DNA of 64,000 bases. Origin: Aquimarina algiphila. Lineage in GTDB: Bacteria > Bacteroidota > Bacteroidia > Flavobacteriales > Flavobacteriaceae. A program made the translations under genes and the position numbers. Below the pieces are notes generated by a model. That model did not search any database. It was not told where the DNA came from and worked only from the letters and a program-made list of their open reading frames with translations. The stretch is from the NCBI RefSeq assembly GCF_007489275.1, contig NZ_VLNR01000002.1, forward strand, positions 1 to 64,000, given 5' to 3'. This document shows positions 3,359 to 50,885 of the stretch, one piece after another (the first letter of the stretch is position 1; each line of letters starts with the position of its first letter).

Positions 3359-3560
3359 GATTCAAAAATAACATTTAGAATATTTAATTTTTCCTTATGT
3401 GGTTACAATCCCTCTTTTTCTTATACGAAAAGGGGAAACTATACAACCAAATATCTGTTAGCGCAATTATCCCTTTTTTATCCTGCGATTTACCTGTTAC
3501 ATGTAAATTAAAAACCTTTTAGAACACTAACCCTTTATTTTGTTTCAAAATCAAAAAACA

Positions 3561-4850
3561 ATGAAACCAGTTATTATATTTATTACGTTATTTCTATTAT
3601 TTTCTTGTAAAGAAAAACAATCAGAGCATGTTGTGAGCCAAACCCAAAATGTAGACAAGATACCCGTTATCGATTCTGCATATGTAGCAACTAAAACAGC
3701 TTATTTTAAAATTAAGGATGGAGTTATTGTAGGAGATGGTCGAACAGTGCTGGATACTATTATATCTACATCACAATTTGTGATGTTTGGAGAACGTCAT
3801 GGTTCAAAAAATACTTCGCAATTGATTACCGCTTTGATTCCAATGTTACATACGGGAGGATTTAATCATACTGCTTTTGAAGTTGGACCATATTCGGCTA
3901 AAAAATTGGTCACACTTAGCACTCCACCATCAGAAACGGTGAATAACTTAAGGAAATTTACTTCGCAATATGCCGGCAAAGAGGATAATCAAGTTCCAAT
4001 TCCATTTTTTGATGGTCTCGAAGATGCATATTTCCTTCAATCCATCCGGGAGCATGATATGGGTATTTGGGGACTAGATCAGGAATATTATTCGTCAACC
4101 TTATATTTTATGGATGAATTACTCTCTTTTGTAAAGAATGATGCTGATTATACTATTATCAAATCAGAAAAAGAACAAGCGTCCAAAATAATTGCTTCAT
4201 GGTATGAGAAGGAGGAGAATTCGGATACTGATATTGATCTTTTTACAGAAATCCAAAAGGAACCTAAAGTGCAACAATATTTGAATCGTTTCAGGAAAAA
4301 TGAAGCTACCAAAAAAATCATCGAAGATCTAGAAATTAGCTGGGATATTTATTCTCGTTGGCGTAAAGATTCACATGCAGATCGGATAAGTTATATGCGT
4401 AATAACTTTTTGAAACATTATCAACAAGTAGTAAAAATGGAATCTAATCCTAAGGTATTCTTAAAGTTTGGAGGTTTACACGCTTCTAAAATTCTAACTA
4501 ATAATTGTTATGATTTGGGTAATTTGATTACAGAACTGGCACATCAGAATAATAGCAAAGCAACGATTATAAATTCCTGGAATTATCACTTTATTGATGA
4601 AACAGGAACAGAAGTGAATTATTTGAAAAAATATGCTTGGTATTATAAACGCTTACGAGATCTTATGGTGTTAGGTAAGAGAGATGAATGGACTATTATT
4701 GATTTGACAGCTATTCGTGATGATATCCAGAATGGTCGTGTAACTTTACCTAAAAACGGAGATTATCACCGTATCAAAAGTCTTATAGATGGATATGATT
4801 ATCAGTTAATTCTTCCATTAGATACAGCAGTGACGCCCAATAAAAACTAA
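3561..4850 (+). CDS. Lipoprotein with EreA/ChaN-like fold, function unknown
   Basis: The ATG at 3561 gives a lipoprotein signal (MKPVIIFITLFLLFSC) with Cys16 as lipidation site, 429 residues in all; an ATG seven codons upstream is possible but spoils it. The body has the pattern of the erythromycin-esterase/ChaN/TraB superfamily: an early G-E-R-x-H-G-S motif (FGERHGSKN), a middle FEVGP and a late glycine-His motif (FGGLHASK). I do not recognise a specific family or reaction. The gene is divergent from the LytS/LytR pair and likely co-transcribed with the DUF5694 gene 47 bases downstream, which has the same motif layout. Confidence 0.6.
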   Translation: MKPVIIFITLFLLFSCKEKQSEHVVSQTQNVDKIPVIDSAYVATKTAYFKIKDGVIVGDGRTVLDTIISTSQFVMFGERHGSKNTSQLITALIPMLHTGGFNHTAFEVGPYSAKKLVTLSTPPSETVNNLRKFTSQYAGKEDNQVPIPFFDGLEDAYFLQSIREHDMGIWGLDQEYYSSTLYFMDELLSFVKNDADYTIIKSEKEQASKIIASWYEKEENSDTDIDLFTEIQKEPKVQQYLNRFRKNEATKKIIEDLEISWDIYSRWRKDSHADRISYMRNNFLKHYQQVVKMESNPKVFLKFGGLHASKILTNNCYDLGNLITELAHQNNSKATIINSWNYHFIDETGTEVNYLKKYAWYYKRLRDLMVLGKRDEWTIIDLTAIRDDIQNGRVTLPKNGDYHRIKSLIDGYDYQLILPLDTAVTPNKN

Positions 4851-46032: not shown

Positions 46033-46341
46033 AACATTAATTTTTAACTAGTTGTTTTGTAGCGCGAAAGAACTTTAAAGTAAACACATTATAAGTAAAA
46101 AAGTTATAATTTATATTAGTATTATGTTTTTGATTTAAATACTAAATCTACTATCTATCAACTATTTAAAAAATGATATAAATCACAAAATATTTCTTTT
46201 AAGATTATTACTCTTAAAATGGTTATGAGATAAATCCAAATTGATTGTCTCTATTGAGAATGAAGACGGTTTATACATTTAAAACTTAGGTTTGACACTT
46301 CTTCCATTGTTACTTATATACCACCATGTTGTAGCTAATTA
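46033..46341. other. AT-rich intergenic stretch with an FNR-like half-matching site
   Basis: A 309-base region upstream of the NTF2-like gene without an acceptable open frame. At 46174-46185 it has TGATATAAATCA, a core match to the site before the four-gene operon near 48.3 kb with the same ATAA spacer, but without the outer bases of that palindrome. Nothing else is recognised. Confidence 0.5.
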
Positions 46342-46923
46342 TTATTTGTTCATTAACCCTAGTTTTTCGACTTTTTTTAGCCATTTGACTCTAAATTCTT
46401 CTTTGGATAGTCTTATTGGTCCTATAGTTGTAATTTGTACTTTTTTTACACCTATAAAATTCATTGTTAATTTTTTCATGGCATTATGACTAGGACTTCT
46501 ATAGAACCATTTGTAATACCAACTTGGCTGATCTAAGGTGCAGATTATTCTAGCCGTTTTGCCAGTAAAACTTTTATCCCACCACAAAGAGTTTTTTCTT
46601 TTATTAAAAGCAAATCCAGGAAGTAAAACTCTATCTAAAAAACCTTTCATAATTGCAGGTACAGAGCCCCACCATACAGGATAAATCCATACCAGATGGT
46701 CAGCCCATTTCAATTTTTTTTGAGCATTTAACAAATCTGGCTCCAGTTCTGTTCTTTTTCTATATCCAAATTGAAGGTTTGGGTTAAATTCTAAATCTCG
46801 AATTATTATCTCTTGAATTTCAGTACCAGAAGTTTGTACTCCTTTTTTATATGCTTCTGCTAATGCATTATTATAACTTTCCTTATCTGGATGGCCAATG
46901 ATTAGTACTATTCGTTTATTCAT
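46342..46923 (-). CDS. NAD(P)H-dependent oxidoreductase, flavodoxin-like fold
   Basis: A 193-residue flavoprotein of the NQO1/MdaB-like family. The start IVLIIGHPDKESYNNALAEAY binds the flavin phosphate, and WADHLVWIYPVWWGSVPAIMKGFLDRVLLPGFAF is the family signature. These enzymes reduce quinones or nitro compounds. It is the last gene of a four-gene operon (47938, 47385, 46937, 46342) that appears to be controlled from an FNR-like site. Confidence 0.9.
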   Translation of the reverse strand: MNKRIVLIIGHPDKESYNNALAEAYKKGVQTSGTEIQEIIIRDLEFNPNLQFGYRKRTELEPDLLNAQKKLKWADHLVWIYPVWWGSVPAIMKGFLDRVLLPGFAFNKRKNSLWWDKSFTGKTARIICTLDQPSWYYKWFYRSPSHNAMKKLTMNFIGVKKVQITTIGPIRLSKEEFRVKWLKKVEKLGLMNK

Positions 46924-46936
46924 CTTTTTGTTATTT

Positions 46937-47329
46937 TTAGATTCCTAGTAGTGTTAAAATTCCAATTACTAGGAAAACTACCCATCCAGGATGTTTTCCT
47001 TTTGTTCCGAATAAAACCAGAAAGGAAGAACAAAACATTGCAATTGCAATTGAACTTATTATGAATTCTATCAATTCAGCATTTAATATAGTTTGCTTAA
47101 GTGCTATTTTTATTAGTATAGCACCTACACACCAGCCAAAGAAAGAAGCTATATGCCAAGTAGCCCAAATAATTCTTAGATGCCTTTCTTTAAGGTCAGA
47201 CTTTACGATTGTAGGTGTTATTTTTTTATTATTTTTTTTGTGTTGAAAAATTAAAAGTTCTCCAAATATTGAATGAGATAGCCCTAAAATAAAACAAAGG
47301 ATTCCCGCAATAAACAAATGTGCATTCAT
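46937..47329 (-). CDS. Small integral membrane protein, unknown function
   Basis: A 130-residue protein with four hydrophobic helices, at about residues 4-24, 55-75, 82-105 and 112-129. The segment KERHLRIIWATWHIASFFGWCVG contains conserved-looking His and Trp residues in the membrane, which could bind heme or a metal, but this is inference. It lies 14 bases upstream of the flavin oxidoreductase gene. Confidence 0.6.
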   Translation of the reverse strand: MNAHLFIAGILCFILGLSHSIFGELLIFQHKKNNKKITPTIVKSDLKERHLRIIWATWHIASFFGWCVGAILIKIALKQTILNAELIEFIISSIAIAMFCSSFLVLFGTKGKHPGWVVFLVIGILTLLGI

Positions 47330-47937: not shown

Positions 47938-48264
47938 TTAGAAAAACTTTTTCATTAGCTGTTCGAATCTTGAGCCTGTTAAATCATCTTCTTTAAATAA
48001 CTTAAACAGGGTAAAATAAGCAGGTACGGTTAAATAAAATGTGCAAATGACGAAAGTAGTGATGCTACAAAAAATAGCTAAAGTTTGAGCACCGATTTGT
48101 CCTACATACTTTTGTTGTTCGATAAAATAAATATGAACAGATAATGAATATTCATAAAAGCGTATTGAAACTTCATATACTAGCCAAGCTGGATAAAACC
48201 ATTTTCTAAATGGTATCCACCATTTCCCCCAAATTGATTTCGATTGTTCGTTATTTTCTTCCAT
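47938..48264 (-). CDS. Small membrane-associated protein, unknown function
   Basis: A 108-residue protein with a Trp-rich start (SIWGKWWIPFRKWFYPAW) and one or two hydrophobic helices around residues 20-36 and 60-85 (TLAIFCSITTFVICTFYLTVPAYFTLF). I recognise no family. It is the first gene of the four-gene operon; its leader is short, with TAACCTTTG 15 bases before the ATG and an FNR-like palindrome further upstream. Confidence 0.6.
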   Translation of the reverse strand: MEENNEQSKSIWGKWWIPFRKWFYPAWLVYEVSIRFYEYSLSVHIYFIEQQKYVGQIGAQTLAIFCSITTFVICTFYLTVPAYFTLFKLFKEDDLTGSRFEQLMKKFF

Positions 48265-48278
48265 TTTTAATCTTTTTA

Positions 48279-48324
48279 CAAAGGTTATTTAAATGAAAGA
48301 AGTTTCATTTGATATAAATCAAAT
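48279..48324 (-). promoter_or_regulatory. FNR-type palindrome and promoter of the four-gene operon
   Basis: ATTTGAT-ATAA-ATCAAAT (48307-48324) is a perfect 7-bp inverted repeat and contains the FNR consensus TTGAT-N4-ATCAA. Downstream, TAACCTTTG (48279-48287) resembles a -7 element with one extra base. If transcription starts about six bases after that, the palindrome is centred near -42, the normal place for a class II activator. It overlaps the stop codon of the Crp/Fnr gene. Confidence 0.6.
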
Positions 48325-48900
48325 TCGAATTTTGGGATTTCTTATCCGGCTCAGGGTCTCGAGAGTAATTCCTAAATAAGAAGCAATATGTGTAAAAGGA
48401 ATTCTATTGGTTATATCAGGATATATACTTAATAAGTGTTTATACCTTTCTTCGGCCTTATTAAATTGAATTGTATATAACCTTTCGCATAAACCTAACA
48501 TAGTTTCAGTCACTACAATACGGATAAAGCGTTCGAAGTCATGATGTTTATTAGTAAGGCTGTCTATTATGTCTTTCGAAAATTCTAAAACTTTTGAATC
48601 TTCAACAAATTCAACATAATGTGGGCTTGGTTCCTCGCTAAAAAAACTAACAATTGGTGCCATAAACTGATTTTCGAAAGTGAACCAATCTGAAATATCT
48701 TTGCCGTCTTTCAAATAATAAGCTCTTGCGCAGCCTTCCACTATTAAATAGGCCTTTTTAGAATATTGACCCTCTCTAACTACAATCTCTCCTTTATTGA
48801 AAGTGCTAAGTTTTGAGTTGATAATGAATTCTTTTTGACATTCGACGGATAAAGGTGAATATATTTCACTTATTTTATTTAAGATTTTCTCACTATCCAT
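48319..48900 (-). CDS. Crp/Fnr-family transcription regulator with FNR-like recognition helix
   Basis: A 193-residue regulator: cyclic-nucleotide-binding-like beta barrel (about 25-120), a long dimer helix, and an HTH near residues 168-188. The recognition helix reads ETLSR (Glu181, Ser184, Arg185), the same E-x-x-S-R set that lets FNR read TTGAT. There is no N-terminal Cys cluster, so oxygen sensing through an iron-sulfur cluster is not expected; the ligand is unknown. The next operon is preceded by a matching palindrome, so this is its probable regulator. Confidence 0.9.
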   Translation of the reverse strand: MDSEKILNKISEIYSPLSVECQKEFIINSKLSTFNKGEIVVREGQYSKKAYLIVEGCARAYYLKDGKDISDWFTFENQFMAPIVSFFSEEPSPHYVEFVEDSKVLEFSKDIIDSLTNKHHDFERFIRIVVTETMLGLCERLYTIQFNKAEERYKHLLSIYPDITNRIPFTHIASYLGITLETLSRIRNPKIRI

Positions 48901-49512: not shown

Positions 49513-49995
49513 TTAGTTTAAGGAATTTAGACCGAGTTTATTCCCTTCAGTATCTAAAAACATGGCAAAAAATCCACTTTCATCTGCGTGTGCAGTTTTT
49601 GGGACAATGACTTTTCCTCCGTTTTTTTCGACCTTATCAAGAATATGTTGAAGATTATTTCCACCATTAAGGTATATGGTCACACCATTTGTTGAAGGAG
49701 CGTATCCTTCTCCTTTTATTATAACTCCTGTAACCATTTGTCCTTCATACGGAAATATTCCCATTTCCATTCCTGGTATTTCCATTTTTTCAATGTTAAT
49801 ACCCAAAATAGCTTGATAAAAACTGATTGCTCGTGAAATATCTGTTGCAGGAATTTCAAAAAGAGAAATAAAACTTTGCATCTCGTTTGTAGTTTGTTCT
49901 ACTGGTAAATCTTGCTTTTCTTCTTCTGGTTTGGATTTGTTTTGGCTGTTACAAGCCATAAGACACAAGGCAAGTATTAGTATTATTTTTTTCAT
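49513..49995 (-). CDS. VOC-family lipoprotein
   Basis: The ATG at 49995 gives a 160-residue lipoprotein (MKKIILILALCLMAC, Cys15); a TTG three codons upstream is unlikely. The mature protein is a single VOC (glyoxalase/bleomycin-resistance) domain with FEIPATDISRAISFYQAILG, TIYLNGGNNLQHILDKVEKNGGKV and ESGFFAMFLDTEGNKLGLNS. A VOC domain on a lipoprotein is uncommon; cytoplasmic relatives are more usual. Substrate unknown. Confidence 0.85.
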   Translation of the reverse strand: MKKIILILALCLMACNSQNKSKPEEEKQDLPVEQTTNEMQSFISLFEIPATDISRAISFYQAILGINIEKMEIPGMEMGIFPYEGQMVTGVIIKGEGYAPSTNGVTIYLNGGNNLQHILDKVEKNGGKVIVPKTAHADESGFFAMFLDTEGNKLGLNSLN

Positions 49996-50069
49996 TTGTC
50001 TCAATTAGTTAAACACTACAAAATTATCTTTTATAAAGAAACAGAAATTGTAAAAATGCGACACTCGAT

Positions 50070-50885
50070 CTATTTGTAGAAAAGAGCAGAAAGAGTCATA
50101 TTTTCATTCCCTAAAAACTCTTTTGGGCTAGTTCCTGTAAACTCCTTAAAGTCTTTAATAAAATGGGCTTGGTCATAATATTTACTTTCGTATGCAATAT
50201 GAGTTAGACTTTCTGTTTCTGTGTTAAGTAATATTTTTAATGCGGTTTGCAATCTAATGACTTTGCCTAATTGTTTTGGACTAACTCCAATTTGTTTTTC
50301 AAACTTTCTCTCAAGTTGTCTTCTTTTGGATAAATCATCTTTAAGAATTGTTTTTATTGGTGCATTTCCGTTCGTAGATAGTAGAGCATTAATAGTTGTT
50401 TTTACAATATTTTCAACCGTCGATTTATCATTTAACCTTTCCAGAAGAAATACTTCTATGATTTCTATTCGTTGTTTAACACTCTTTGCATAGATTATTT
50501 TTTGTTCTAGTTCTTTAGCTATTTTTTCTTCAAACAATAATTCTAATGGAGTTTCTTTATTAGCTAAGTTTTTAATTGGCTCAGCTACAAAATTTGCAAA
50601 TCCGTATGGATAAAATCGGATTGCGAATGTATTCACATATCCTGTTGGTTCTATATAAAATGGTTTAATGGTTTGCCCAAGTATCATTGCACGAGGTTGT
50701 AATATAAATTCATCCTCTGAAGTATATCGTTTTATATCATCACCTAGAATAAAAGCCATTTCAATACAACCATCAGGAACGATTCGCTGTTTTTGCGAAT
50801 CATTATCAGCAGGAACTTCTAAAGTCCAATAACAGCTAATTAGGGATTCTAAATCTGGATGCGGCTGAAATGTTTGATAATCCAT
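50070..50885 (-). CDS. AraC-family regulator with DUF6597-like N-terminus
   Basis: A 271-residue soluble regulator. The N-terminal part (YQTFQPHPDLESLISCYWTLE, IVPDGCIEMAFILGD) is the DUF6597-type effector domain; the last 100 residues contain an AraC HTH (RKFEKQIGVSPKQLGKVIRLQTALKIL, HIAYESKYYDQAHFIKDFKEFTGTSPKEF). It may control its neighbours. A perfect 8-bp inverted repeat lies 27-50 bases before its start. Confidence 0.9.
   Translation of the reverse strand: MDYQTFQPHPDLESLISCYWTLEVPADNDSQKQRIVPDGCIEMAFILGDDIKRYTSEDEFILQPRAMILGQTIKPFYIEPTGYVNTFAIRFYPYGFANFVAEPIKNLANKETPLELLFEEKIAKELEQKIIYAKSVKQRIEIIEVFLLERLNDKSTVENIVKTTINALLSTNGNAPIKTILKDDLSKRRQLERKFEKQIGVSPKQLGKVIRLQTALKILLNTETESLTHIAYESKYYDQAHFIKDFKEFTGTSPKEFLGNENMTLSALFYK

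Follow-up and report, generated by a model that had tools for sequence, protein, structure and literature searches.

A Crp/Fnr-type regulator of Aquimarina algiphila and the FNR-like palindrome at its stop codon: a probable local activator unit at a Bacteroidota promoter

Closest described systems and the regulator protein

FNR proper uses three N-terminal cysteines and a fourth for its [4Fe-4S] cluster and has the recognition helix E-x-x-S-R, and cAMP-dependent CRP carries a cAMP pocket motif with GE and RS residues. From E. coli CRP and FNR it is known that a class II activator occupies an operator centred near −41.5; to our knowledge, activator action at the divergent sigma-A promoter of Bacteroidota has been little studied. 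The box consensus for FNR, DNR and FixK is TTGATnnnnATCAA, and HcpR2 of Bacteroides has the site GTAACnnnnGTTAC and the target hcp (PMC1274295, excerpted text). In T4 gene e and I-TevI, the start region is paired in a longer read-through mRNA, and an internal promoter starts inside the structure and drops the 5′ arm (PMC3014915 and PMC2988022, excerpted text).

We analysed a window of 64,000 nucleotides of Aquimarina algiphila (contig NZ_VLNR01000002.1), in which a 193-aa Crp/Fnr-type regulator is encoded on the minus strand at 48,319–48,900 (C-terminal end of the ORF, ETLSRIRNPKIRI). The results described below make this a well-supported new local regulatory unit of a known superfamily, with an FNR-type box at a Bacteroidota promoter. 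The regulator very probably acts as a local class II activator of an operon comprising P108, a DUF2867 protein with a 130-aa protein, and a reductase, through a palindrome at its own stop codon. Among the papers listed by searches of the open-access PMC literature, a scope that excludes subscription papers, none concerned the regulator, the site or the operon.

The regulator matched PF00027 (E = 9e-11, 42 bits against a cut-off of 27.5), which identifies an N-terminal cNMP-binding beta-roll domain of the Crp/Fnr kind. No Pfam helix-turn-helix match was found at E 0.01; the AlphaFold2 model (mean pLDDT 94.0, 59-row alignment) contains helices at residues 169–176 and 180–187 which, together with full-length fold matches, indicate the Crp/Fnr helix-turn-helix. 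The best Foldseek matches in the PDB include MtbCRP, GlxR, the Cytophaga protein 3dn7 and A. fischeri FNR. The recognition helix, E181-T-L-S184-R185, is constant in all 62 close rows of the orthologue alignment that reach that far, upholding the proposal of an FNR-like helix in the initial annotation. The same positions are frequently kept in 28 remote paralogues (E in 16, S in 28, R in 24), so the helix alone proves little, and the evidence lies in the linked conservation of site and regulator.

We then compared the protein with the known systems. It resembles FNR, DNR and FixK in its box, its helix and its class II position, and its fold matches the A. fischeri FNR variant 8qto (TM 0.84, 21% identity). 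It differs from FNR and FixK in its NCBIfam scores, 21.6 (PRK11161) and 24.1 bits against cut-offs of 228 and 300, and from FNR in lacking the cysteine set, in having one perfect site in the window genome where FNR has a global regulon, and in a target promoter of the Bacteroidota sigma-A type. Judged by its sequence, the regulator is not FNR proper. The CRP pocket motif is absent as well; residues 76–98 (ENQFMAPIVSFFSEEPSPHYVEF) are conserved without GE or RS by eye. HcpR2 also belongs to the Crp/Fnr regulators, comes from Bacteroidota and has a mostly local target; here, the site is ATTTGAT-NTAN-ATCAAAT and the targets are others, which places the regulator outside HcpR2. The closest solved sequence relative is the Cytophaga hutchinsonii protein 3dn7 (E = 4.5e-17), also a fold match, whose helix EYLSEIR is without the R of the motif; the record seen describes neither function nor site.

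The only cysteines of the regulator are C21, C57 and C138. Each is present in all but one of the 63 close orthologues, and the single losses fall in different rows (L101, L149 and L098). At 54–58% identity, C21 and C57 are present in 8/8 and position 138 is Q in 8/8; at 38–48% identity, residues other than Cys prevail at all three positions. The initial annotation, which stated that an iron–sulfur cysteine set is lacking, was right for the FNR pattern but missed these nearly invariant residues. A signal other than an FNR-type Fe–S cluster fits the regulator sequence, and a thiol-based signal in the close group is a suggestion, ranked below a result because the cysteines vary outside that group.

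The stop-codon palindrome and its conservation

The predicted operator, ATTTGAT-NTAN-ATCAAAT, lies at 48,307–48,324 as a perfect 18-bp palindrome (minus-strand reading, ATTTGAT-TTAT-ATCAAAT) that overlaps the regulator stop codon (TGA, 48,319–48,321). The perfect ATTTGAT-ATAA-ATCAAAT reported after the gene is therefore present, and the FNR box TTGATnnnnATCAA is perfect at 48,309–48,322 and conserved among the orthologue loci. Perfect ATTTGATN4ATCAAAT occurs once in the 7.0-Mb genome (271 contigs), with one-mismatch copies at 12 other places. The bare TTGATN4ATCAA core is frequent (73 genomic copies against 19 of the backwards pattern; within the window, 103 matches at up to two mismatches against 110.9 expected) and thus unremarkable alone; it is conservation that lifts the site above chance.

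A genome scan for sites near promoters had been proposed as a check. Using the 12-base core plus TTTG with up to two mismatches on both strands, we obtained 57 matches against 37 for the reversed pattern; since only the window site is perfect, no further member could be named in this genome. The core copy noted earlier near 46.18 kb exists at 46,173–46,186, but it differs from the conserved site at four positions and has no TTTG where the spacing would require one, and we treated it as a chance match rather than a second site.

We collected 59 orthologue loci from genome contigs plus further ones from relatives, and defined close loci by a regulator identity of at least 65% (n = 65, including the window copy). 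The palindrome was found at the regulator stop codon in 63 of these 65 loci, 58 times perfect and five times with one mismatch. Conservation over the 59 distinct sequences is 100% at 12 of the 14 arm positions and 93% and 98% at the remaining two, around an N-TA-N centre. Both loci without it, L021 and L100, represent one species seen twice; their regulator stops after residue 152, with loss of the DNA-binding domain, and P108 and the reductase were unmatched in the stretch.

Searching up to 250 bases downstream, we found perfect TTGATN4ATCAA behind 60 of 62 close regulators, 8 of 8 at 54–58% identity, 9 of 19 at 38–48% identity (with a one-mismatch core in four more of the 19) and 1 of 28 remote paralogues. 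Up to 250 bases upstream, the core was found only in the 38–48% group (two cases), with none in the close, 54–58% or remote groups. Autoregulation through an upstream site was considered and is not supported, as the perfect core stands before 0 of the 62 close regulator genes and the 100 bases upstream (64 loci) hold no conserved block beyond the positions adjacent to the start codon. Neighbours of the non-close regulators include FAD monooxygenase-like ORFs and a protein with a weak pyridoxamine-oxidase match.

Two explanations without a DNA operator were weighed against these data. Conservation at the stop codon could reflect coding constraint or recent common descent, with the FNR-like look arising by chance, as the final codons and the stop fall within the left arm, and the loci are related and belong to a unit that seems to spread horizontally. 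This we consider extremely unlikely: the non-coding right arm is invariant while its flanks vary, regulators of only 38–58% identity keep the palindrome, and the region upstream of the regulator gene has diverged. Moreover, in three loci with a changed reading frame (L084, L085 and L086) the stop codon has shifted and the palindrome has not, which coding constraint cannot explain. The palindrome also folds as a 7-bp stem at the gene end, and could serve as an RNA stem-loop that terminates or stabilises the regulator mRNA. This role is very unlikely, given that both arms are near letter-for-letter invariant without covariation, that the stem is A+U-rich with no T-run, and that the 18-mer recurs with the same promoter spacing at unlinked places with no intact regulator gene ahead.

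Taxonomically, the close loci come from 29 named genera in Flavobacteriia, Cytophagia, Saprospiria and Bacteroidia. In a quick tree, the close regulators fall on one branch (SH-aLRT 100) in which Flavobacteriia, Cytophagia and Bacteroidia are intermixed, which suggests horizontal spread of the regulator unit. One locus, L081, is titled Algicola and filed under Gammaproteobacteria, probably a naming clash.

Separately, repeats of the GCCAACA...GTTGGCA type, reminiscent of attC, were seen before the regulator and/or after the reductase in L063, L061, L019, L047, L048, L052 and L068. Apart from one good inverted pair, in L063, integron-like flanks are not supported: five matches were counted against four in shuffled sequence. 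In Aquimarina megaterium (L100, L021 and L147), the regulator truncated at residue 152 is followed by an attC-like-looking inverted repeat, and the palindrome, P108 and the reductase are missing there.

Promoter geometry, target operon and predicted hairpin

The −7 box is given as T-12 A-11 H H T-8 T-7 T-6 G-5 in Flavobacterium johnsoniae (PMC6847099) and as spanning −12 to −5 in F. psychrophilum (PMC9723704), each in excerpted text. By these definitions, column counts place a predicted sigma-A −7 box, AACCTTTG, at 48,279–48,286 on the minus strand (−12 to −5); the window copy keeps A at −11 and TTTG, without T at −12. With G at −5, the transcription start is predicted at 48,274 (minus strand), 10 nt before the P108 start codon, and the palindrome centre falls at −41.5. 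By sequence and the numbering in these excerpts, this is the class II position relative to a predicted start, and it agrees with the earlier estimate of a centre near −42 of the likely promoter.

This geometry is rigid. TTTG stands at a single fixed distance from the palindrome in 59/59 distinct sequences, at a background frequency of 0.9% per position in the loci, and −11 is A in 59/59, whereas −12 is T in 0/59. The missing T is as expected of a promoter needing an activator. In the 54–58% group, TTTG is at the standard distance in 7/8, lying four bases further in L130; among the nine perfect-core sites of the 38–48% group, it is at that distance in six and absent in L136, L137 and L138. These exceptions indicate that the spacing is not universal outside the close group.

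Position alone is also compatible with a repressor: the palindrome abuts the promoter, and a regulator bound at −41.5 could block RNA polymerase until a signal releases it. We consider this unlikely, because a repressor site would tolerate shifts, whereas the spacing is exact in 59/59 distinct sequences and at 9 of 10 unlinked sites, and because the absence of T at −12 (0/59) would be expected of a promoter that needs an activator. Protein–DNA binding, and activation rather than repression, are what we infer from these patterns. For activation, we propose that a dimer of the 193-aa regulator occupies the palindrome overlapping the stop codon of its gene and, from −41.5, recruits sigma-A RNA polymerase to the −7 box without T at −12, which would switch on P108, the DUF2867–130-aa protein segment and the flavodoxin-type reductase. 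The ligand domain or the conserved cysteines would sense a redox- or electrophile-like signal.

All four genes of the predicted operon were found on the minus strand, as the initial annotation had listed them (108-residue protein, DUF2867, membrane protein, flavin oxidoreductase). P108 (47,938–48,264; 108 aa) is the first gene, with no Pfam match and hydrophobic segments by eye. It is followed by the DUF2867 protein (PF11066; 47,385–47,897), a probable 130-aa membrane protein with no Pfam match (46,937–47,329), and a flavodoxin-fold NAD(P)H oxidoreductase (PF02525, 120.6 bits; 46,342–46,923). With tblastn, P108 was matched in 63 and the reductase in 62 of the 65 loci, and most loci have just these two genes; matches to the 130-aa protein were obtained in 14/65, and to DUF2867 between P108 and the reductase in 3/65.

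A hairpin that straddles the promoter is predicted in the read-through mRNA at 48,256–48,301 (minus strand; window z = −4.5), with its left arm near 48,292–48,299 and its right arm at 48,258–48,265, including the P108 AUG. The left arm, CTTCCATT (−25 to −18; in the window CTTTCATT), is complementary to AATGGAAG at the P108 start. The folded stretch began behind the palindrome and ended twelve bases from the P108 start; 54 of the 59 loci were used, leaving out L077 and L085 (start not found) and L074, L078 and L092 (start displaced). The z score was below −2 in 44 loci, and the AUG was fully paired in 48. Over 57 loci (the 54 plus L074, L078 and L092), mean predicted AUG pairing was 0.91 in read-through mRNA against 0.36 in the transcript from the predicted +1; in the window, the two predictions are 0.998 and 0.13. 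Other ORF starts in the same loci (n = 492) had a mean AUG pairing of 0.46, and 25 of these fold at or above the P108 median.

Covariation support for the hairpin is modest, and all shuffled controls ignore relatedness. Watson–Crick pairs in the outer arm numbered 403/456 against 397.9 in shuffled data (reached in 194 of 5000). The second helix register was too variable for column counts, so the inner stem was counted with our own script on 52 of the 54 rows, giving 104/156 against 95.2 (reached in 13 of 5000, or 110 of 5000 when each combination was counted once). The score of a covariation counting tool was reached in 9 of 500 shuffles, and an RNAalifold consensus on a MAFFT alignment kept six outer pairs and not the inner stem. 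The stretch ATGGAAG is also coding. At 16 sites before the group's other promoters, the effect was not seen on average (0.50 in read-through, 0.60 in own transcript), which confines the hairpin to the P108 operon.

An RNA lock on the P108 start is thus plausible from the predicted folds. When transcription runs on from the regulator gene, the P108 AUG would be paired in the mRNA with the upstream CTTCCATT-like sequence, and mRNA from the activated promoter would start inside the hairpin, without the left arm. Because the AUG would be paired in read-through mRNA, we propose that P108 is translated mainly from the activated promoter, and the hairpin may keep P108 silent as long as the switch is not engaged. 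T4 gene e and I-TevI are, in the excerpts cited above, the closest described arrangement to this hairpin, which is predicted only. They rely on phage late promoters and Shine-Dalgarno sequences, whereas the P108 unit would combine a Crp/Fnr-dependent promoter with bacteria lacking Shine-Dalgarno sequences; if true, the hairpin would be the chromosomal equivalent, in such organisms, of the lock on T4 lysozyme. In L077 (5580–7308), about 1.7 kb separates the palindrome promoter from P108, and the promoter now faces other sequence.

Unlinked sites and neighbouring genes

We searched 56 genomes, the own genome and relatives, for the perfect 18-mer. Its 11 carriers are the same 11 genomes that have a regulator at E ≤ 6.6e-52, and the 45 others lack it; the reversed pattern was found in 0/56. 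Of the 23 perfect sites in the 11 genomes, 13 adjoin a regulator, and these co-occur with it partly because they are neighbours, so only the ten unlinked sites (in four relatives) are independent. At nine of these, TTTG stands at the standard distance from the palindrome, each time with G at −12. The comparison strongly supports the central proposal of the initial annotation: a regulator with an FNR-type helix and, ahead of the following operon, a matching site at an activator position. By comparison across loci, the evidence is for the site, its fixed geometry, its linkage to the regulator clade and the reuse of the promoter layout before other genes in relatives.

The unlinked sites precede several kinds of gene. 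In L122, the site lies before a FAD-dependent monooxygenase ORF (PF01494, PRK06753-like), and similar-looking FAD monooxygenase ORFs stand 166–181 bases behind the sites of L116 and L120. The sites of L117, L121 and L124 precede a 204-aa membrane protein, which had weak cytochrome b-type matches below cut-off (tested for L121); behind it stands a relative of the 130-aa protein seen in the window. That of L118 precedes a large DUF4132 protein (profile-tested), with a similar-looking ORF in L119, and that of L125 a leucine-rich-looking ORF. The site of L123 lies inside a glycosyltransferase-looking ORF with TTTG not in place, and is probably a chance match.

In a phylum sample of 392 genomes (regulator match at E ≤ 1e-35, up to eight candidates scored per genome), the 18-mer was found in six: the own genome and G215, both with a regulator, and four without a regulator match. 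In those four, the promoter spacing is absent on either strand, and we read them as chance copies. A regulator match was obtained in six of the 392 genomes; among these, a one-mismatch site is accompanied by TTTG in G235, the one-mismatch core of G336 lacks TTTG, and G103 and G251 (42% and 39% identity) have no good site.

Comparison of the sequence behind the unlinked sites with regulator gene ends (lengths include the 18-base site) revealed apparent remnants. For L121 and L124, an 88-base match (90–91%) was obtained to the end of a 57%-type regulator gene, in an interrupted reading frame that is still recognisable (tblastn E = 8e-7 against 0.03 for the best shuffled control). Matches of 80–83% extend over 51 to 58 bases in L118, L119 and L125 and over 49 in L117; that of L116 covers 24 bases, only six beyond the site. 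In L120, 544 bases match the upstream flank of the L132 regulator at 86%; the site follows directly, and the regulator body is missing. The same comparison found no regulator remnant behind the sites of L122 and L123. With such remnants behind their sites, several unlinked members look like copies of the unit with a decayed regulator, obeyed by a regulator elsewhere.

These observations suggest a portable two-key unit, in which a stop-codon activator box is combined with a start-codon RNA lock, and regulons grow as the unit is copied, loses its local regulator and has its boxes obeyed in trans; we give this wider model an even chance. Decayed regulator ends behind unlinked boxes would offer a direct view of a local regulator becoming a regulon. 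Regulator and box would form a compact self-contained switch, and the 59 distinct promoters in 29 named genera are a ready test bed for class II activation in Bacteroidota.

Two further observations concern the surroundings. Near position 4009 of L120, compared with 2792–3998 of L132, the site and a FAD monooxygenase-like ORF remain after an apparent deletion of the local regulator. In the window, AraC-type and glyoxalase-like genes lie beside the regulator at 49,513–50,885; a corresponding pair (75% and 58% identity) lies beside the L055 regulator (3422–4804), and another (47% and 30% identity) is close to a related regulator in L146 (191–1137).
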